The notes under the pieces: generated by a model
What the model was told of the DNA's origin: nothing
Database searches by the model: none
The model's input: only the letters and a program-made list of their open reading frames with translations
Made by a program: the position numbers and the translations under genes
Part shown: positions 5,973-34,902 of the stretch, one piece after another
Position numbering within the stretch: position 1 is the stretch's first letter
Layout: each line of letters begins with the position of its first letter
NCBI RefSeq assembly: GCF_020892095.1
Contig: NZ_AP024845.1
Coordinates: 1,364,001 to 1,428,000, forward strand
Direction: 5' to 3'
Origin: Claveliimonas bilis
GTDB lineage: Bacteria > Bacillota > Clostridia > Lachnospirales > Lachnospiraceae
DNA: 64,000 bases

Positions 5973-6221
5973 ATGAAACTATTTCAACGGGGAAAAGCAG
6001 CTGAAGAGGATATTTATAGAAGACTGTCTTTCGACAAAGATAATTTTGATATTGCAGAAGAGATCGCTCTTGCCAGACAGGAAATTGAAGATGCCTACAA
6101 TAACTTCCAGAATGCTTCTGATCCTGATCTTATCGACTGTTACATTTACAGGGGAAACGCCGCATGGAAGCGGTATAGCTTTCTCCTCCGGCAGGCAAAA
6201 TCAATTTTACCCAGGGTATAA
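5973..6221 (+). CDS. DUF2508 (YaaL-like) family protein
   Basis: The small acidic, helical protein (82 residues) contains the DUF2508 pattern DIAEEIALARQEIEDAYNNFQNASDPDLIDCYIYRG broken over residues 25-60, including the conserved A..E...A...F....DPDLID region. The ATG at 5973 is chosen over an in-frame ATG at 5955 because GGAGGTGA, a perfect anti-Shine-Dalgarno match, lies eight bases before it. No biochemical role is established for the family. The last six codons and the stop overlap the beginning of a dispersed intergenic repeat (6201-6295), so the C-terminus (SILPRV) may have been altered by repeat insertion. Confidence 0.75.
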   Translation: MKLFQRGKAAEEDIYRRLSFDKDNFDIAEEIALARQEIEDAYNNFQNASDPDLIDCYIYRGNAAWKRYSFLLRQAKSILPRV

Positions 6222-6295
6222 CGCAGTTTTACCCACCACTTAATGCAATTTGGGACGTAACACTTTTAAAGTTTGTTACGTCCCAAATTGCATTA
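6201..6295. repeat. Dispersed repeat copy A: 22-nt degenerate units plus 22-bp palindrome
   Basis: From 6201 two 22-base degenerate units read CAATTTTACCCA... and CGCAGTTTTACCCA..., followed by a perfect inverted repeat with arms 6241-6262 and 6274-6295 and an 11-base AT-rich loop. The core GGGACGTAACACTTTTAAA recurs at 25414 and 27026-27047 (copy B) and, decayed, at 34529 (copy C). The right arm ends exactly with the stop codon of the dCMP deaminase gene. It may act as that gene's 3' hairpin, but it lacks a U-tract. It resembles a non-autonomous mobile repeat (MITE or REP-like), without a visible related transposase. Confidence 0.8.
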
Positions 6296-6781
6296 CAACT
6301 CTATTTCTATCTTTCTTCCCGTTCGCTTATACTGGTGATATTTCACTCCCGCCGCGTCGAACATTCTCTTTGATGCGGTCACAGACGGGGTCCCTTCATA
6401 TTTATTGCAGTCATAGATCACTTCTTTTATCCCACTTTGTATGATCGCTTTTGCACATTCATTACAGGGAAACAGGGAAACGTACAATTTAGCGCCTTCC
6501 AGGCTGCCTCCTCTGTAATTTAATATCGCATTTAATTCGCTGTGCACAGTATAGACATATTTTGTATCAAGGGGATCGTCTCCCTCTCTGTCCCAGGGAA
6601 ATTCATCGTCAGAACATCCGATCGGCAAGCCATTGTATCCCATGGAAAGAATCTTGTTATCCTGGCTTACGATACAGCACCCTACCTGTGTATTCGGATC
6701 TTTAGAACGCTGTCCGGATAAGATTGCCACTCCCATGAAATATTCATCCCAGCTTATATATCCTTCTCTTTTGCTTCCCAT
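6293..6781 (-). CDS. Deoxycytidylate (dCMP) deaminase family protein
   Basis: The 162-residue protein has the zinc-dependent cytidine/dCMP deaminase motifs HSELNAIL (zinc His and catalytic Glu) and PCNECAKAIIQSGI (two zinc Cys). The long insertion between the N-terminal part and the HxE motif (GCSDDEFPWDREGDDPLDTKY) fits dCMP deaminases such as ComEB rather than tRNA or nucleoside deaminases. It would turn dCMP into dUMP for thymidylate synthesis in the cytoplasm. It lies 20 bases downstream of upp, so a pyrimidine-salvage operon is likely. Its stop codon is the end of the palindromic repeat. Confidence 0.9.
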   Translation of the reverse strand: MGSKREGYISWDEYFMGVAILSGQRSKDPNTQVGCCIVSQDNKILSMGYNGLPIGCSDDEFPWDREGDDPLDTKYVYTVHSELNAILNYRGGSLEGAKLYVSLFPCNECAKAIIQSGIKEVIYDCNKYEGTPSVTASKRMFDAAGVKYHQYKRTGRKIEIEL

Positions 6782-23332: not shown

Positions 23333-24010
23333 ATGCCCAGAGGAATATTACCAGAAGTGAAGCTGCAGGCCGTAAAAGATTATATTTCAGGAAACGGATC
23401 CTATCTATCACATGCCAATGAACTTGGAGTGGATGAAAGCGTTTTTAGAAGATGGGTTAACAAGTACAAAGCATCCGGAGAATCCGCTTTCATCAGAACA
23501 GGACACAGTCAATCTTATTCAGCCTCCTTTAAAAAATGTGTTGTTGAAGCGTATCTAAACGGAGAAGGATCTTACAGGAAACTGGCAGTCACCTATAACA
23601 TTCCTTCCGAAATTACAATCAGACAGTGGGTTTTGAAGTATAATGGACATGAGAAGCTGAAAGCTTCTGGAACGGGAGGAATTGCTATCATGACCAAAGG
23701 AAGAAAAACTACCTTCGATGAACGGGTTGAAATCGTACAATACTGCATCGCCCATGATCATAATTATGCCAAGACAGCAGAACAGTTTGGGATTTCTTAC
23801 CAACAGGCACGTAATTATACAATAAAATACGAGAACCAGGGAGTGGAGGCTCTTCGTGACAGACGCGGAAAACGAAAACCAGAAGCAGAAATGTCAGAAC
23901 TCGAAAAGCTGCGGGCAGAAAACCGGATCTTACGCGCAGAAAAAGAACACGCACAAATGGAGGCGGATTTCCTAAAAAAACTTGCAGAAATCGAAAGGAG
24001 GCGGGGCTGA
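23333..24010 (+). CDS. IS3-family OrfA (DNA-binding part)
   Basis: The 225-residue protein contains two or three helix-turn-helix repeats (GSYLSHANELGVDESVFRRWVN, GSYRKLAVTYNIPSEITIRQWV, NYAKTAEQFGISYQQARNYTI, each broken here by context) and a C-terminal leucine-zipper-like coil (EMSELEKLRAENRILRAEKE). Such proteins bind the terminal repeats and dimerise. GGAGGGGAG lies upstream of the ATG. Near its end the codons CTA AAA AAA offer an A_AAA_AAA slippery site for a -1 shift into orfB. Confidence 0.88.
   Translation: MPRGILPEVKLQAVKDYISGNGSYLSHANELGVDESVFRRWVNKYKASGESAFIRTGHSQSYSASFKKCVVEAYLNGEGSYRKLAVTYNIPSEITIRQWVLKYNGHEKLKASGTGGIAIMTKGRKTTFDERVEIVQYCIAHDHNYAKTAEQFGISYQQARNYTIKYENQGVEALRDRRGKRKPEAEMSELEKLRAENRILRAEKEHAQMEADFLKKLAEIERRRG
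23974..23980 (+). promoter_or_regulatory. Programmed -1 frameshift site of the IS3 element
   Basis: Seven consecutive A are read as A_AAA_AAA in the orfA frame. A -1 shift here enters the orfB frame, which is open through 24909 and yields an OrfAB fusion (…DFLKKTCRNRKEAG…). A GGAGG follows about 15 bases downstream. Confidence 0.7.
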
Positions 24011-24039
24011 GCCGGCAAAGGAACAAACACATTTATCAG

Positions 24040-24909
24040 GTGATCAAAGAGGATCATGAAGAACACCATTACCCGATCCGGTCCCTATGTCAGCTTGGCA
24101 ACATTACAAGAGCGGCTTACTACAAATGGCTGAACCGTATAGAAACAGCAAATGACCGGCTGAACAAACAGATTTCCGGCCAACTGGAAGCAATCCATCA
24201 AGAACATCCAGACATGGGATATCGGAGATTGAATGACAAACTCCGTCACGATAACGGCATAAAAGTAAATGATAAGAGGATCCTGCGCATATGCAGAAAA
24301 CAGCAGATAAGATCAAACTTGAAATATCGTTATGACGGCTGCACCCGGCCATCGAAGAAACCAGCTTTTATAGCAGAGAATGTTTTAAACAGAGACTTTC
24401 ATGCAGATAGCCTGAACAAGAAATGGGTAACGGATGTAACAGAGTTTAAATATGGCACTTCATTTGACCATATCCATAAGCTTTACCTGAGTGTGATTCT
24501 GGACTTATGCGATCATCGTCCCGTTGCATATGTGTTAAGTGATCACAATAACAATCAACTCGTATTTGATACTTTCGATCTGGCAGTAAAGAACAATCCG
24601 GGAGCTCATCCGATCTTTCATAGTGACCGGGGATTCCAATATACCTCCCGTGTATTTCACCAAAAGCTAGTAGATGCGGGGATGACACAGAGCATGTCCC
24701 GGATAGCGCACTGTACGGATAATGGACCTATGGAGGGATTCTGGGGGATACTAAAACGCGAAATGTATTATGGGAAGAAGTATCATACCAGGGAGGAGCT
24801 TGTAGAAGCGATAACGTCATATATAGACTATTACATAAATGACCGCCCGCAAAGGTGCCTTGATGTATTAACACCGTTTGAATTTCATGAACGGTTATTA
24901 GCCGCATAA
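24040..24909 (+). CDS. IS3-family OrfB transposase (DDE integrase core)
   Basis: The reading frame has no good ATG start and is best read as the second half of an OrfAB fusion. It shows the IS3 N-terminal HTH_21 segment (PIRSLCQLGNITRAAYYKWLN) and an rve integrase core with catalytic Asp in WVTDVTEF, Asp in FHSDRGFQY and Glu in NGPMEGFWGILKRE (normal family text has ES at this place). The C-terminal segment INDRPQRCLDVLTPFEF is intact, so the element may be active. Confidence 0.9.
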   Translation: MIKEDHEEHHYPIRSLCQLGNITRAAYYKWLNRIETANDRLNKQISGQLEAIHQEHPDMGYRRLNDKLRHDNGIKVNDKRILRICRKQQIRSNLKYRYDGCTRPSKKPAFIAENVLNRDFHADSLNKKWVTDVTEFKYGTSFDHIHKLYLSVILDLCDHRPVAYVLSDHNNNQLVFDTFDLAVKNNPGAHPIFHSDRGFQYTSRVFHQKLVDAGMTQSMSRIAHCTDNGPMEGFWGILKREMYYGKKYHTREELVEAITSYIDYYINDRPQRCLDVLTPFEFHERLLAA

Positions 24910-25376: not shown

Positions 25377-25435
25377 CCGTAAAACGCAATTTTGCCCACC
25401 GTAAAAGGCAGTTTGGGACGTAACACTTTTAAAAA
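25377..25435. repeat. Dispersed repeat copy B, left half
   Basis: Two 22-base units (CGTAAAACGCAATTTTGCCC and CGTAAAAGGCAGTTTGGG) lead into the left arm (25410-25426) of the palindrome seen in copy A. The right arm is at 27035-27051 on the far side of the IS4-type element. Joining the halves at one copy of the 9-base duplication TTTTAAAAA restores a perfect palindrome with 17-base arms. Confidence 0.8.
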
Positions 25436-25468
25436 GCAATGTCATTAAGTTTAGAAATTAAGATTCGA

Positions 25469-25503
25469 AAAGCATGGAACAAGAAATATTCCATGCTTTT
25501 TTG
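25469..25503 (+). terminator. Terminator at the left end of the IS4-type element
   Basis: Perfect 11-base arms (AAAGCATGGAA and TTCCATGCTTT) and a 9-base loop are followed by TTTTTT across 25497-25502. It would stop transcripts entering from outside the element before the transposase gene. Confidence 0.75.
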
Positions 25504-25542
25504 ATGAAAACACTTGACAAATCATACAAAATTTGTGGCGAA

Positions 25543-25581
25543 GCCATTTGAATATATACTTTTTTGGAGGTTTCAAATGGC
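25543..25581 (+). promoter_or_regulatory. Hairpin enclosing the transposase ribosome site and start codon
   Basis: GCCATTTGAA (25543-25552) is perfectly complementary to TTCAAATGGC (25572-25581). The ATG of the transposase (25577-25579) lies in the 3' arm and GGAGG (25566-25570) in the 19-base loop. A transcript starting upstream of 25543 would hide the start codon; one starting inside the loop would not. Comparable control against outside transcription is known from IS10 and IS50. Confidence 0.6.
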
Positions 25582-26887
25582 TGATTATTCCCTTATCACA
25601 AAACAAAAATTAATACACATTATGAAAAAAATGTCCCGTAGTTCTGATTCTTATGTAAAACGTCCCGGAAAAGATTTTTCCCGTTCCAGAAAAATTTCCT
25701 TTTTTGATACCTTACGTTTCCTTCTTTCTTTAGGCGCTAAGTCTTTGGATAAGGAACTTTTGGACTTTTTCTCCTATCGCCCGGATCTTCCTACCTCTTC
25801 CGCCATGCTGCAACAGCGCGGCAAACTCAAGCCCAATACTATGAAAGTCCTCTTTTCTGTTTTTACGGCCTCTCTCCCCAAACATTCCAACTTCCATGGC
25901 TATCATCTTCTTGCTGCTGACGGTTCAGAGCTCTCCTTCCCGGAAAATAAAAAAGAACCTCTCTGCCATCGAAAGATCCCTAACACACAAAAAGGGAAAA
26001 ACGCAATCCATCTAAACGCTTTATACCATCTAAACAGCGGTATTTTTGATCAGGTCCTGTTTCAGCCTGTCCATGAAAAAGATGAACACTCCGCCCTTAT
26101 TACCATGCTGGCACAAACGGAAATTTCCAGCAAAGTCATCCTTACTGCCGACCGGGGATATGAAAGTTATAATACCTTTGCACATATCTTGGAAAAAGGA
26201 TGGAATTTTGTGATCCGGGGACGGCAGGGAGACAGGGGGATCCTTTCCAGTTTAGCCATTCCCGATCAGGAACAATTCGATGTGGAATGTCCTGTCGTCA
26301 TCTGTAAAAAACACTGCCGTGGCACCAAAGAACAGCCGGAACTCTACAAACGGATCCGATCCGGTGCAAAGTTTGACTTTTTTACGGAAGAGCAAACGGA
26401 ATATCCGATGAAACTACGAGTGATAAAGTTGAAAGTAAACGAAGATCTTTCCGAGATCCTTTTTACGAATCTGTCCAAAGAAGAAATGCCCGTTGGAATG
26501 CTCCAGGAACTCTACCGTATGCGTTGGATGATAGAGACAGCATTTTCCCAGCTAAAATATAATCTTGGGGCCAGTGCGCTTCATTCAAAAAGAATAGAGT
26601 ATGTCCTGCAGGAACTGTATGCAAAAGTCATCATGTTCAATTATTGTAAAAGCATCCTGTTTCACATCTCGCTTCCCCAAAAAACATCTTGGAAATATGA
26701 TTATCAGATCAGCCTGAGTACAGCAGTAGATATCTGCTTAAAATCATGGCGCTGTCCAAATGGGACAGCGCCGCCAGATGTTGAAATATTACTGCTTAAA
26801 TATAAAGTCCCAATAAGAAGGGAAAGAAGTTTTCCCAGAACACCTTCCCCAAAAGCAGTGATCTATTTCACTTATAGGATAGCATAA
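25577..26887 (+). CDS. IS4-family transposase (DDE, Tnp_1)
   Basis: The 436-residue protein has an N-terminal DNA-binding part and a DDE core: Asp in LLAADGSELSFPEN, Asp in ILTADRGYESYNTF, and the YREK signature YRMRWMIETAFSQLK that supplies Glu. The core order and long beta-strand insertion between the second Asp and Glu fit IS4 rather than IS5 or IS1182. The ATG at 25577 with GGAGG six bases upstream is the start; an in-frame codon at 25514 precedes the hairpin. All catalytic residues are present. Confidence 0.92.
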   Translation: MADYSLITKQKLIHIMKKMSRSSDSYVKRPGKDFSRSRKISFFDTLRFLLSLGAKSLDKELLDFFSYRPDLPTSSAMLQQRGKLKPNTMKVLFSVFTASLPKHSNFHGYHLLAADGSELSFPENKKEPLCHRKIPNTQKGKNAIHLNALYHLNSGIFDQVLFQPVHEKDEHSALITMLAQTEISSKVILTADRGYESYNTFAHILEKGWNFVIRGRQGDRGILSSLAIPDQEQFDVECPVVICKKHCRGTKEQPELYKRIRSGAKFDFFTEEQTEYPMKLRVIKLKVNEDLSEILFTNLSKEEMPVGMLQELYRMRWMIETAFSQLKYNLGASALHSKRIEYVLQELYAKVIMFNYCKSILFHISLPQKTSWKYDYQISLSTAVDICLKSWRCPNGTAPPDVEILLLKYKVPIRRERSFPRTPSPKAVIYFTYRIA

Positions 26888-27025
26888 AAGGGGAAAATAC
26901 GGAACAGGAATTTGAAGCAGACAGCGGTCTGCTTTATCGGTCTGCATAAAAGAATGACAGCGTAGATTTGGATATCAACACTGTCTTTCTTTTGAGGACT
27001 CATTTTCTAAACTTAATGACATTGC

Positions 27026-27051
27026 TTTTAAAAAGTGTTACGTCCCAAACT
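27026..27051. repeat. Dispersed repeat copy B, right half
   Basis: The second copy of the 9-base target duplication (27026-27034) is followed by the right palindrome arm (27035-27051, GTGTTACGTCCCAAACT). The arm ends on the first base of the stop codon of the SpoIIQ-like gene, the same placement relative to a gene end as copy A. Confidence 0.75.
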
Positions 27052-27857
27052 TACTCCATAAACGTTACCGGATCAATTGGCTGTCCGTCTTTTCTCATTT
27101 CAAAGTATACATTGCAACCCTCAACACTGTAATATTTTGTAGGCTGGCTCACATATCCCAGTACCGTCTTGGCCTCCACATAATCTCCGGTATTAACAGT
27201 CACATCTTTCAGCTGGCCGTAAAACAGCTCATATCCGTTCCCTATATCAACGTTTACTGTTGTCCCCGTCTCGGCATTTTCATCAATGGATTTTACTACT
27301 CCCGCCGTACTGCTGATGACCTGGTCTCCTTCAGCACCGGAAATGATCAGTGCCGGATTGTATTTGTACTGATCCAGTGTAGAAAAGTATACGGTCTCGT
27401 CCATACTGTAATTCATCAGTACATTTCCGTCTACCGGCCACAAAAGCTTACTGCTTTCTGTAAAATTTACAGACGAGCTGTTTCCGGCTGTCTGCGCAGA
27501 TATCCCTGCAGAAGATGAGCCGTTTTCTCCGGCTGTCCCATCTGTATTTTCTGAAATTTGGGCGTCTTCCTGTTCCTCTGACTCTTCTGCAGCGCTGCTG
27601 CCGGCAGCAGTGGGATCTTCTTCTGTATTGATCACAAGATTACTGCCTGCCTCTTCTTTTGTTCCATCCTCCGGCTCTTCCTCCCGCATATCTTTTTCCT
27701 TTGTCTCATCCTCTGACAATGCCAGCTCCTGCCGCTTTGCTTCCTGATAATCCCGAAGCGTATATGTTCCAACCATGATAATTGCGGCTACAAAGCAGAC
27801 AGCGATTCCAATACCGGCACCCTTCCTCTTTTTTGAAGGCTTTTGTCTTTTATTCAT
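27051..27857 (-). CDS. spoIIQ: SpoIIQ-like protein with degenerate LytM (M23) domain
   Basis: The protein (about 268 residues) has a Lys-rich N-terminus, one membrane helix (GAGIGIAVCFVAAIIMVGTY), a long Glu/Ser/Ala-rich linker and a C-terminal M23 fold (LLWPVDGNVLMNYSMDETVYF, then GYELFYGQL and NVYFEMRKDGQPIDP). Zinc ligands are missing: the first His site reads NYSMDET and the HxH site reads NVYFEM, so it should not cut murein. SpoIIQ of Bacillus is similarly non-enzymatic and forms a channel with SpoIIIAH across the forespore membranes. The neighbour spoIID supports the name. ATG at 27857 follows AGAGGTGA. Confidence 0.75.
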   Translation of the reverse strand: MNKRQKPSKKRKGAGIGIAVCFVAAIIMVGTYTLRDYQEAKRQELALSEDETKEKDMREEEPEDGTKEEAGSNLVINTEEDPTAAGSSAAEESEEQEDAQISENTDGTAGENGSSSAGISAQTAGNSSSVNFTESSKLLWPVDGNVLMNYSMDETVYFSTLDQYKYNPALIISGAEGDQVISSTAGVVKSIDENAETGTTVNVDIGNGYELFYGQLKDVTVNTGDYVEAKTVLGYVSQPTKYYSVEGCNVYFEMRKDGQPIDPVTFME

Positions 27858-27899
27858 ATTCATCACCTCTGGCTATATTTTTGCCAGAAGCTGATATCA

Positions 27900-31356: not shown

Positions 31357-34300
31357 TTATCTTTCGACACCGATCGTCACTTTTTCTCCGTTGATATTCC
31401 ATTCCTTCACATAGCCTGCCGGAGTGGATTTTTCAACAGAAAGTGCAAGTGTTTCACTGCTGATTTCTGAAGCATGATCTGCAAATACTTTTTCGGCCTT
31501 TTCGCTTCCTTCGTAACGGATGTGAATCTTGTCTGTCACTTCAAAATCCGCTTCTTTTCTCATTGTCTGTACCTTACTTATGATCTCACGCACAAAACCT
31601 TCTTCAAGAAGTTCCGGTGTCAGGTTTGTATCAAGAACAACTGTAATTCCATTATTATCCTCTGATACATATCCCTCCATCTGTGCTGTATCGATAAGAA
31701 GATCTTCTTTAAACAATGTGATTTCCTGTCCATTTACATTGAGTTTCAAAGCTCCTGTTTCATTGACTTCATCCATTGCTGCATTTCCGTCCAGTGATGA
31801 CAAAGCAGCTTTGATTCCACCCAACATTTTACCATATTTTGGTCCTACTGTCTTTAACTGCGGTTTAAATGTATATGAAGTAAAGGAACGTACATCCTGT
31901 GTAAATGTTAAATTCTTTACATTCAGCTCTTCTTTTATAATATCCTGGTAAAATTCAGGAAGCTGTGTTCCTGTCTTGACAAACATCTGTCCGATTGGCT
32001 GACGGTTTTTGATATTGGCCGTATTTCTGCAGGCACGACCCATAACGACAATCTTCAGAACCTCATCCATGTTTGCCTCAAGTTCTTTGTCAATAAATGC
32101 CTCGTCTGCTGTCGGGAAGTCGCACAGATGAATGCTCTCCGGAGCAGACTTGTCAATGCTTCTTACCAGGTTCTGATAAATTTCCTCTGTCATGAAAGGA
32201 ATCATAGGAGCTGCCACCTTGCAGAGAGTCACAAGCGCCGTATAAAGAGTCATGTACGCATTGATCTTATCCTGCGGCATTCCTTTTGCCCAGAAACGCT
32301 CCCTGCTTCTTCTGACATACCAGTTGCTCATGTCATCTACAAAATCCTGCAGCGCTCTTGCTGCTTCCGGGATCCGGTAATTTCCAAGGTGGTCATCCAC
32401 TTCCTTGATCAGTGTATTCATCTTGGACAGAAGCCATTTATCCATAACCGGCAGTTTGTCATATTCCAGTTCATATTTTGATGCGTCAAATTCATCAATA
32501 TTCGCATAGAGAACAAAAAATGCATACGTATTCCACAATGTTCCCATGAATTTGCGCTGTCCTTCTACAACCGCTTTTCCGTGGAAACGGTTCGGAAGCC
32601 ATGGCGCACTGTTTACATAGAAATACCAGCGGATCGCATCTGCGCCGTATGTCTCCAGAGCGTCAAAAGGATCTACCGCATTTCCTTTGGACTTACTCAT
32701 CTTCTGACCATTCTCATCCTGCACATGCCCAAGAACAATAACATTCTTATAAGGAGCCTTGTTGAAGATCAGAGTGGAAATAGCAAGCAGAGAATAGAAC
32801 CATCCTCTTGTCTGATCCACTGCCTCGGAAATAAAGTCCGCCGGGAACTGCTGCTCAAACAGCTCCTTATTTTCAAATGGATAATGATGCTGGGCAAACG
32901 GCATGGAACCGGAATCAAACCAGCAGTCGATCACTTCCGGCACGCGGTGCATTTCCCCGCCGCACTTCGGACATTTGATAGTTACATCGTCAATATAAGG
33001 ACGGTGCAGTTCAATATCATCCGGACAGTTGTCAGACATGGATTTCAATTCCTCAATGCTTCCAATGGAATGCTGATGTCCGCATTCACACTCCCAGATA
33101 TTTAAAGGAGTTCCCCAATAACGGTTTCGGCTGATTCCCCAGTCCTGAACATTTTCCAGCCAGTCGCCGAAACGTCCCTTTCCGATACTTTCCGGGATCC
33201 AGTTAATGGTATTGTTATTTGCGATCAGGTCGTCTTTTACCGCTGTCATTTTGATAAACCAGGACTCACGCGCATAGTAGATAAGCGGTGTATCACATCT
33301 CCAGCAGTGGGGATAACTGTGCTCGAATTTCGGCGCGTCAAAGAGCAGCCCTCTCGCCTCCAGATCCTTCAGCACCTCCGGATCCGCTTTCTTTACAAAC
33401 AGGCCGGCAAATGGCGTTGTCTCTCCCATGTTTCCTTTTTCATCTACCAGCTGTACAAACGGCATATCATATTTGCGTCCTACCTTGGCATCATCTTCAC
33501 CAAAGGCCGGTGCAATATGAACAACACCTGTACCGTCTGTCAGGGTAACATAGCCGTCGCATGTTATGAAAAACGCTTTTTTATTCTGTTTTGCTGCACA
33601 GTCATAAGCACACTGATACAACGGCTCATATTCTTTATATTCCAGTTCCTGTCCTTTGTAAGTCTCCAGAACTTCATAGGCCGGTTTTCCTTCTTCTGCC
33701 AGTTTTCCAAGCACTGTATCCAAAAGAGCCTGCGCCATGTAATATACATAGCCGTCTGCTGCCTTTACTTTCGCATAATCTTCTTCCGGATTCACACAAA
33801 GACCGATATTGGACGGCAAAGTCCACGGCGTTGTGGTCCATGCCAGAATGTAAGCATCCTCATCCTTTACCTTAAAACGGACGATAGCTGAGCGCTCTTT
33901 TACATCCTTGTAGCCCTGCGCCACTTCCTGGGCTGAAAGCGGAGTTCCACAGCGGGGACAGTAAGGAACGATCTTAAAGCCTTTATACAGAAGTCCTTTA
34001 TCCCAGATCTGTTTCAGCGCCCACCACTCGGATTCGATAAAATCATTGTGGTACGTAACATAAGGATTATCCATATCTGCCCAGAAACCTACTGTTCCGG
34101 AGAAATCTTCCCACATCCCTTTGTATTTCCAAACACTTTCTTTACACTTATTAATAAAGGGTTCCAGACCATATTCCTCAATCTGATCCTTTCCATCAAG
34201 ACCGAGTAATTTCTCAACTTCCAGCTCTACCGGAAGACCGTGCGTATCCCAGCCTGCTTTTCTTGGAACCATATATCCCTTCATGGTGCGGTATCTTGGG

Positions 34301-34503
34301 ATCATGTCCTTAATAACACGGGTCAGGACGTGGCCGATGTGCGGCTTTCCGTTTGCAGTCGGAGGGCCGTCATAGAAGGTGTATGTCTCGCCTTCTTTGC
34401 GGTTTTCCATACTTTTTTCAAAAATGTGATTCTCTTCCCAGAACTTTTCTACTTCTTTTTCGCGGTCAACAAATTTCAGATCAGTTGAAACTTTCTTGTA
34501 CAT
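31357..34503 (-). CDS. ileS: Isoleucine-tRNA ligase, type 2
   Basis: The 1048-residue class I synthetase has HIGH at residues 55-58 (NGKPHIGHVL), KMSKSKGN near residue 600, the editing CP1 region (ILAWTTTPWTLPSN) and a C-terminal anticodon-binding region that ends without the Cys4 zinc finger of type 1 enzymes. Length, KMSKSKGN and the C-terminus match eukaryote-like (type 2) IleRS, a class that is often naturally insensitive to mupirocin. A T-box leader with an Ile specifier precedes it, separated by a repeat copy. GGAGGAAA lies before the ATG. Confidence 0.97.
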   Translation of the reverse strand: MYKKVSTDLKFVDREKEVEKFWEENHIFEKSMENRKEGETYTFYDGPPTANGKPHIGHVLTRVIKDMIPRYRTMKGYMVPRKAGWDTHGLPVELEVEKLLGLDGKDQIEEYGLEPFINKCKESVWKYKGMWEDFSGTVGFWADMDNPYVTYHNDFIESEWWALKQIWDKGLLYKGFKIVPYCPRCGTPLSAQEVAQGYKDVKERSAIVRFKVKDEDAYILAWTTTPWTLPSNIGLCVNPEEDYAKVKAADGYVYYMAQALLDTVLGKLAEEGKPAYEVLETYKGQELEYKEYEPLYQCAYDCAAKQNKKAFFITCDGYVTLTDGTGVVHIAPAFGEDDAKVGRKYDMPFVQLVDEKGNMGETTPFAGLFVKKADPEVLKDLEARGLLFDAPKFEHSYPHCWRCDTPLIYYARESWFIKMTAVKDDLIANNNTINWIPESIGKGRFGDWLENVQDWGISRNRYWGTPLNIWECECGHQHSIGSIEELKSMSDNCPDDIELHRPYIDDVTIKCPKCGGEMHRVPEVIDCWFDSGSMPFAQHHYPFENKELFEQQFPADFISEAVDQTRGWFYSLLAISTLIFNKAPYKNVIVLGHVQDENGQKMSKSKGNAVDPFDALETYGADAIRWYFYVNSAPWLPNRFHGKAVVEGQRKFMGTLWNTYAFFVLYANIDEFDASKYELEYDKLPVMDKWLLSKMNTLIKEVDDHLGNYRIPEAARALQDFVDDMSNWYVRRSRERFWAKGMPQDKINAYMTLYTALVTLCKVAAPMIPFMTEEIYQNLVRSIDKSAPESIHLCDFPTADEAFIDKELEANMDEVLKIVVMGRACRNTANIKNRQPIGQMFVKTGTQLPEFYQDIIKEELNVKNLTFTQDVRSFTSYTFKPQLKTVGPKYGKMLGGIKAALSSLDGNAAMDEVNETGALKLNVNGQEITLFKEDLLIDTAQMEGYVSEDNNGITVVLDTNLTPELLEEGFVREIISKVQTMRKEADFEVTDKIHIRYEGSEKAEKVFADHASEISSETLALSVEKSTPAGYVKEWNINGEKVTIGVER

Positions 34504-34528: not shown

Positions 34529-34622
34529 ACAGGACACGTAACACTTTTAAGGTTTACTACGTGCCAAATTACAATTTGCCATGTGTAAAACTGCGAATTA
34601 CCCTGTGTAAAATTGTATTGAA
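34529..34622. repeat. Dispersed repeat copy C, decayed, inverted orientation
   Basis: Read on the minus strand it starts CAATTTTACACAGGGTAA, continues CGCAGTTTTACACATGGCAA and then a weakened palindrome (GGCACGTAGTAA ... TTAAAAGTGTTACGTGTCC). Unit spacing is again 22 bases. It lies in the transcribed leader between the T-box terminator and ileS. Mismatches in the palindrome arms mark it as the oldest of the three copies. Confidence 0.7.
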
Positions 34623-34902
34623 TAAAAAAGCTTCCATCCTGTGTATTAGGATGAAAGCTTGCATTCCTTCATTTATAAACCACCTAACATACCAACATAT
34701 GCCTTCCGGTAACGGCGGATCCCGTCAGTTCCTACTAAGAATTTTATGCTGCCCTTTCGGAAACTGCGACTCTAAAGTGATATTCAGATATATGCTACTT
34801 GCACCGGCCTTCCACCATCACCGGCTCGCTTGAACGTTCCCATATATCCTACTGTCTTCGTCATAGTCTTTTACGCATGGTCAATTCTTCTGTTTTTACG
34901 TC
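34623..34902 (-). promoter_or_regulatory. T-box riboswitch (Ile) with terminator
   Basis: The leader RNA shows the Stem I features: lower helix GATATATG with CATATATC, a distal loop region GCCGGTGATGGTGGAAGGCCGG, and a specifier context TGAATATCACT with ATC (Ile). Near the 3' end TTAGGTGGTTTATAAATGAA carries the TGGT that pairs with tRNA ACCA; TTAGG and ATGAA can pair with CCTAA and TTCAT to form the antiterminator. The competing terminator is AAGCTTTCATCC / GGATGGAAGCTT followed by TTTTTT. Uncharged tRNA-Ile should favour read-through to ileS. The T-box lacks the usual ACCGCG. Confidence 0.85.

Follow-up and report, generated by a model that had tools for sequence, protein, structure and literature searches.

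A dispersed repeat in Claveliimonas bilis, combining a long palindrome with a tail of 22-nt units, is very probably a REP-like, non-autonomous element of a REP-associated tyrosine transposase (RAYT, of the HUH/Y1 type) encoded elsewhere on the same chromosome. A sequence-only reading of the window (the whole stretch analysed here, 64,000 nt) had proposed a MITE, a REP-like element or a family of structured RNAs. The REP-like option is supported because the sequence of the repeat also flanks a RAYT gene, and the MITE and structured RNA options are less favoured. As REP-like elements go, the repeat represents an unusual form of a known kind, with gene-end sites that are often common to species and a spelling that is species-specific.

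The three copies in the window (A, B and C) lie where they had been described (Table 1). The arms of the copy A palindrome are indeed perfect over 22 bases, and the arm stays in the 22-nt register of the units (GCAATTT at 6245). The outer TTA of this palindrome (6293-6295) serves as stop codon for a minus-strand ORF (6293-6781), and copy B has its right arm directly beside the stop codon (27051-27053) that ends the minus-strand ORF 27051-27866; the reported meeting of the outer arm with a minus-strand stop codon is therefore true of copies A and B, and copy C is not at a stop. Copy B is split into a left half (25377-25436) and a right half (27025-27050) by a 1,588-bp insertion sequence (IS; 25437-27024), with CTTTTAAAAAG duplicated exactly over 11 bp at its borders. 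Copy C (34529-34622) runs opposite to copy A, has imperfect arms and lies just upstream of the minus-strand ORF 31357-34503, which we take to be ileS-like. Elsewhere in the window, two adjoining ORFs (23333-24909) look by eye like an IS3-type orfA/orfB transposase pair.

Table 1. Features of the three repeat copies in the window
Feature	Positions	Strand	Basis
Copy A, outer 22-nt unit (CAGGG type)	6201-6222	+	sequence, unit pattern
Copy A, inner 22-nt unit (CACC type)	6223-6244	+	sequence, unit pattern
Copy A, palindrome, 55 nt, perfect 22-base arms, 11-nt centre, core 6255-6281	6241-6295	.	
Copy B, degenerate 22-nt units (pattern match 25386-25401)	25377-25407	+	
Copy B, palindrome left arm and centre, including left target duplication 25426-25436	25408-25436	.	
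IS4-family insertion sequence at palindrome centre of copy B	25437-27024	+	
Copy B, right target duplication 27025-27035 and right arm	27025-27050	.	
Copy C, palindrome (core 34536-34562), upstream of the presumed ileS-like gene	34529-34575	.	
Copy C, two 22-nt units (pattern matches 34579-34594 and 34601-34616)	34576-34622	-	

Absence of further copies in the genome had been named as grounds for abandoning the repeat as a family. The palindrome core, ACGTARYA-N11-TRYTACGT with a fixed length of 27 nt, occurs exactly 45 times in the 3.04-Mb genome and the reversed control pattern not once, so the repeat is not a product of chance. With up to two mismatches allowed, the whole genome holds 49 cores against 13 for the reversed control; of the four additional cores, one (with one mismatch) is a real copy and three (with two mismatches) look like chance. 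Seven further sites hold or abut an IS, six of them whole IS copies and one a remnant beside half a palindrome, and a local search with copy A gave 77 matches genome-wide, both strands counted. The genome contains about fifty palindrome copies. Where the pattern found two units in a copy, their starts lie exactly 22 nt apart (15 of 15 pairs), and this register is common to the units and the palindrome arm. Most copies are single; inverted pairs at short distance occur at 2015067/2015251 in this genome and at three loci elsewhere (L141, L146 and L149). By inspection, the palindrome foot AATT(T)GGG is paired with CCC(A)AATT, and no unpaired GTAG/GTRG or CGTC foot was found beside the palindrome; where GTAG does appear, in some species, it is confined to the stem, and the C. 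bilis genome often has GTAACA. As the unpaired foot is missing, the element is not a classical GTAG/CGTC REP. Spelling differs between genomes: counted by hand, 40 of the 52 half-sites in genome G397 have the form ACGTAATA, which none of the 90 half-sites in the 45 exact C. bilis copies shows. In genome G323 (loci L087, L090 and L092), the palindrome is extended by further 22-nt units of palindromic type, such as ACACGTAACATTTTTCACTTTA, which suggests that the palindrome may itself consist of two 22-nt units meeting head to head.

The RAYT gene of C. bilis (ORF at about 2195614-2196414) contains the only PF01797 match of the genome (2195683-2196012) and lies between inverted palindromes at 2195559 and 2196468 whose tails point inward: the locus reads palindrome, GGTGT unit, CCTGT unit, gene and then the mirror image. 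The protein matches the NCBIfam family NF047646 ('REP-associated tyrosine transposase') at 86.8 bits with a cut-off of 80; among three relatives, two exceed the cut-off (80.8 and 82.7) and one, L250, falls below it at 68.4. The PF01797 search covered 37 chosen genomes, and a profile (A2) was built from 18 longer relatives among its matches, leaving out L222-L225, L244 and L247, of which two looked like another class and the rest were misread or short. The best sequence match of the profile in the PDB is 4ER8, TnpA-REP (E 1.5e-4), followed by weak matches, mostly to ferritin. The HUH motif (H71, H73) and the Y...NP motif (Y130, N134, P135) are invariant in 18 of 18 relatives. All 18 also carry a C-terminal part of about 120 residues, in which the scan of five proteins gave no Pfam HTH at E values up to 1.

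Association of this class of gene with the palindrome extends to other genomes. Every one of the 18 profile genes has a palindrome on at least one side. A survey of 50 genomes, among which some A2 rows recur, gave 34 A2 matches in 23 genomes; 30 loci were fetched and scored, and 29 had a flanking palindrome, on both sides in 23. Control windows of the same size were positive in 3 of 150 cases in the same loci and in 8 of 300 in loci of the yhaM set described below. Across 83 flanks with at least one recognised unit (some loci being counted twice under two handles), the step from GGTGT to CCTGT is 22 nt in 30 cases, 23 in seven and 21 in four. The C. bilis gene is single-copy, and seven genomes of the 50 surveyed contributed two fetched loci of the class each, with differently spelled flanks; G412, for instance, has two RAYTs, one flanked by ACGTAACA and the other mainly by ACGGAGG. 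A 266-residue Y1 protein in G138 has no palindrome nearby, and the hairpin in G207 is a different one. RAYT-like genes at L225 (in G384, where one of three RAYTs is flanked by GGGGTCAGACCCC palindromes), L244 (G036) and L247 (G353) have different long palindromes on one or both sides (GGGGTCAGACCCC; AACCAAAGGGTCTGTCCCC), and Lachnospiraceae therefore contain several RAYT-repeat pairs. At 24 of 53 RAYT loci, representing 17 distinct genomes once double handles were removed by contig and position, the genes on either side match those of the C. bilis locus, and across these syntenic loci the protein identity of the upstream neighbour is 94.9 to 100%. Because both neighbours are shared in 17 genomes, the RAYT looks like a vertically kept chromosomal gene.

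The palindrome core was found in 23 of 397 genomes of the family, of which 16 have at least two copies (up to 48). Single matches carry no weight, seven of the 23 positive genomes having only one; since one-match genomes are as frequent as genomes with one control match (seven each), the firm number is 16. Within the genus the core occurs in six of 11 genomes (23 to 48 copies) and is absent from the other five. PF01797 is present in all six palindrome-bearing congeners (frames of 266-293 residues) and in none of the five palindrome-free ones. Outside the genus, however, it also occurs in eight of 14 palindrome-free genomes tested, mostly as short IS200-like frames, so PF01797 alone is no marker. 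The A2 class, scored as a profile row, the same gene in a sister strain or a search match, is present in 14 of the 16 multicopy genomes. Flanks of the ACGTA type were found in 12 of these 14; in the other two, G191 and G352, the RAYT flanks that were found are spelled unlike the ACGTA copies counted there, which slightly weakens the link with the RAYT. Two further genomes speak against it: G231 has 15 copies and no RAYT of the class (the assembly is 82% complete), and G353, with 13 copies, has only a distant RAYT without these flanks.

A finding that would speak against a repeat family had also been named: sites conserved in position among relatives while the loci lack sequence similarity to one another. 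Many sites are indeed conserved in position, but the loci do share sequence. In a second C. bilis strain all 29 fetched copies (of 48) lie at the same sites, so that no empty site was available and no movement was seen. Counterpart sites, meaning that the C. bilis counterpart of a flanking gene lies within 100 nt of a full core or IS site there, account for 14 of 20 fetched loci (15 of 23 palindromes) in three congeners and for 12 of 31 palindromes in other genera (8 of 26 sites once double fetches and neighbours are merged). By a rough estimate from about 53 sites and some 2,500 spacers, about one site in fifty would be expected to be shared by chance.

One spacer, following a gene that we take to be yhaM, was surveyed across genomes. 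It was present in 52 loci, of which 50 were scored; the two left out (L155 and L201) both have a palindrome by eye. A palindrome occupies the spacer in 19 of 23 RAYT-positive genomes and in 3 of 27 RAYT-negative ones (Fisher p 4e-7, a value that, like the others given here, overstates independence because the genomes are related), and in none of the 1,471 further windows taken from these loci. This scoring used an anchor-based test adopted after the misses of the first hairpin finder had been seen; that finder, which missed palindromes with an unpaired centre, had counted 11 of 23 RAYT-positive and 3 of 27 RAYT-negative genomes (p 0.005). L189 (one anchor mismatch) and degenerate hairpins at L158, L178, L184-L186 and L204 were scored as absent. 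The exceptions are three genomes with a palindrome in which no RAYT was found and four with a RAYT and no palindrome at the threshold. The spelling at yhaM agrees with that of the RAYT flanks of the same genome at 4.9 of 6 positions on average, against 3.9 when shuffled (p 5e-5, n=19), and disagrees in G419 and G420. Across 20 yhaM palindromes, 12 of 19 pairs have changed on both sides, and covariation reaches 0.353 as compared with 0.156 after shuffling and at most 0.137 after sliding. Some genomes have ACGTA-type palindromes at this site and others the ACGG type, and therefore replacement or repeated insertion at a favoured spot must have acted, not descent alone. It is conceivable, if rather doubtful, that a domesticated, vertically inherited RAYT rewrites its chromosomal palindromes in place: a palindrome would be retained at orthologous sites across genera, each species converting these sites to its own spelling both at the RAYT and at genes far from it. 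If this is true, the transposase would be a long-term caretaker of genomic hairpins and not a mover, with the phased 22-bp tail as its docking array.

The IS within copy B belongs to the IS4 family, with a transposase ORF at 25514-26887 (ATG at about 25577). Every whole copy of this IS lies inside one of these palindromes, six of six in this genome and two of two in the second strain, and with the remnant that abuts half a palindrome there are eight distinct IS sites in all. The 11-bp duplications of the eight whole copies are exact in five cases, carry one mismatch in one and differ more in two, and four of the C. bilis IS sites are uninterrupted palindromes in the second strain. Of two relatives of the IS4 element, L291 (G399) and L292 (G403), the first, of 39% identity and with similar ends, lies between repeated CCATCCTCAG in a hairpin loop (AAAGAGCCC/GGGCTCTTT); since this relative too lies in a hairpin loop, it hints that the IS lineage may prefer such loops. 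Similar homing of insertion sequences to REPs has been described for ISRm22, an IS4-family element with nine copies in the REPs of Sinorhizobium meliloti, and for IS1397 (both PMC1525189), as well as for ISPpu9 (PMC8450116). Compared with these, as far as the excerpts of the two papers describe them, the present case differs in host phylum and repeat, in insertion at the palindrome centre and in the 11-bp duplications. The same physical union of an IS4-family IS with some copies, together with inverted ends and dispersed copies, is what an ordinary MITE of a DDE transposon would offer in its favour. However, the IS4 element is a guest, as it has its own ends and 11-bp duplications and is located inside the palindrome, and no target duplication was seen by eye around copies consisting of palindrome and tail. 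The MITE reading was rejected on this last ground and has next to no chance of being correct.

Gene context was assessed approximately, from ORFs of at least 75 codons and without a gene finder. Among the 45 exact palindromes of the genome, 27 lie between tandem genes, 12 between convergent and four between divergent ones, with two unclassified, a distribution that resembles that of REPs. Of the 43 classifiable copies, 31 are closest to a stop and 12 to a start, and the median distance from the palindrome centre to the nearest gene edge is 26 nt. In 26 of the 43, the centre has a stop codon within 45 nt; some copies are, by eye, upstream of ribosome-binding sites. Such proximity to stop codons would suit structured RNA elements or terminators, that is, hairpins that follow stops and end or stabilise transcripts, the transposase link being secondary. 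The compensatory changes at an orthologous site, the many sites conserved between species and the two multicopy genomes without the RAYT class point the same way. Nevertheless, the suggestion that the repeat doubles as a termination signal gains no support from the sequence: a terminator scan gave nothing terminator-like around copy A, and the sole such site around copy C is a separate hairpin (34628-34660). An intrinsic terminator was rejected, the scans being negative at copies A and C themselves, and so was a known RNA family, because an Rfam scan of the window at the gathering score returned a single tRNA and no family for the repeat. The same scan found no T-box anywhere in the window, which includes the presumed ileS-like gene with copy C directly upstream. 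The occurrence of copies upstream of ribosome-binding sites, the bracketing of RAYT genes by the same palindrome and the patchy distribution also argue against the RNA reading, which is improbable.

If the repeat served a DNA-binding protein with a regulatory or chromosome-organising role, which would bind at the phased 22-bp units, this would account for the exact phasing (all 15 pairs, with 22 nt also the commonest step in the RAYT flanks) and for a spelling common within species. However, a simple dyad needs no covarying arms beyond conserved half-sites, the presence of the repeat mostly follows that of a RAYT, and no gene other than the RAYT regularly has it on both sides; this explanation is accordingly given only a very slim chance. 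Mu-, Tn7- or IS21-like multi-site transposon ends, a candidate taken from the 22-bp units, were dropped after the Y1 gene had been found between two copies.

The repeat and its RAYT share several features with the REP/REPIN-RAYT systems of E. coli and Pseudomonas (TnpA-REP), as portrayed in part of PMC8266576: a Y1 HUH protein assigned to the NCBIfam REP family, one copy of the transposase, and inverted palindromes that flank it and are also dispersed between genes. In contrast to that portrayal, there is no unpaired GTAG foot here, the palindrome is about 45-55 nt long with near-perfect arms (classical REPs having a palindrome of 20-40 nt), the tail of 22-nt units is one-sided, and many orthologous sites are kept between species and some between genera. 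In the available portions of PMC3733652 and PMC6006769, the TIRtrons with their TIRYT transposases and the TnpA-Y1 subclass 2.1 (RAYT group 1), respectively, have a transposase that is likewise longer and carries a C-terminal part; it lies between long inverted repeats in place of GTAG REPs, and some of the inverted repeats are partly self-complementary and moderately abundant. The TIRYT consensus GGGGWSAS given there (PMC3733652) is unlike the palindrome foot found here, GGGGACGT; by eye, the CCTGT tail unit in reverse fits it in some genomes. The portion of PMC6006769 concerned reports that no REP-like sequences were found beside subclass 2.1; the present system, in contrast, has up to 48 copies per genome. 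Placed by description, the element appears most to resemble the TIR-flanked transposases of PMC3733652 or subclass 2.1 of PMC6006769. GTAG and CGTC REPs are predominantly reported from Proteobacteria, according to the relevant part of PMC3733652, and a partial literature search found no paper joining RAYTs with repeats of Lachnospiraceae.

By analogy with published TnpA-REP biology, the RAYT would bind the palindrome as a single-strand hairpin, cut beside it and rejoin it elsewhere. The anatomy of the repeat suggests that the phased tail, with about two helical turns per 22-nt unit, may form a double-stranded array on which the RAYT docks, perhaps through its C-terminal part of roughly 120 residues. 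Copies would persist by stops and ribosome-binding sites, where insertions would be nearly harmless and could function as hairpins at the 3' end of mRNAs, and the loop of the palindrome would in turn be the target of the IS4-family IS.

These observations answer the candidate 'new RNA family' raised for this stretch and expose an IS homing to the palindrome loop. They describe a RAYT-repeat system in gut Lachnospiraceae in which the transposase sits at one syntenic locus in 17 genomes and the target sites are common to species and to some genera, with visible changes of spelling. The system offers a natural series for the co-evolution of a domesticated transposase and its repeats, whether these are replaced in place or re-inserted.
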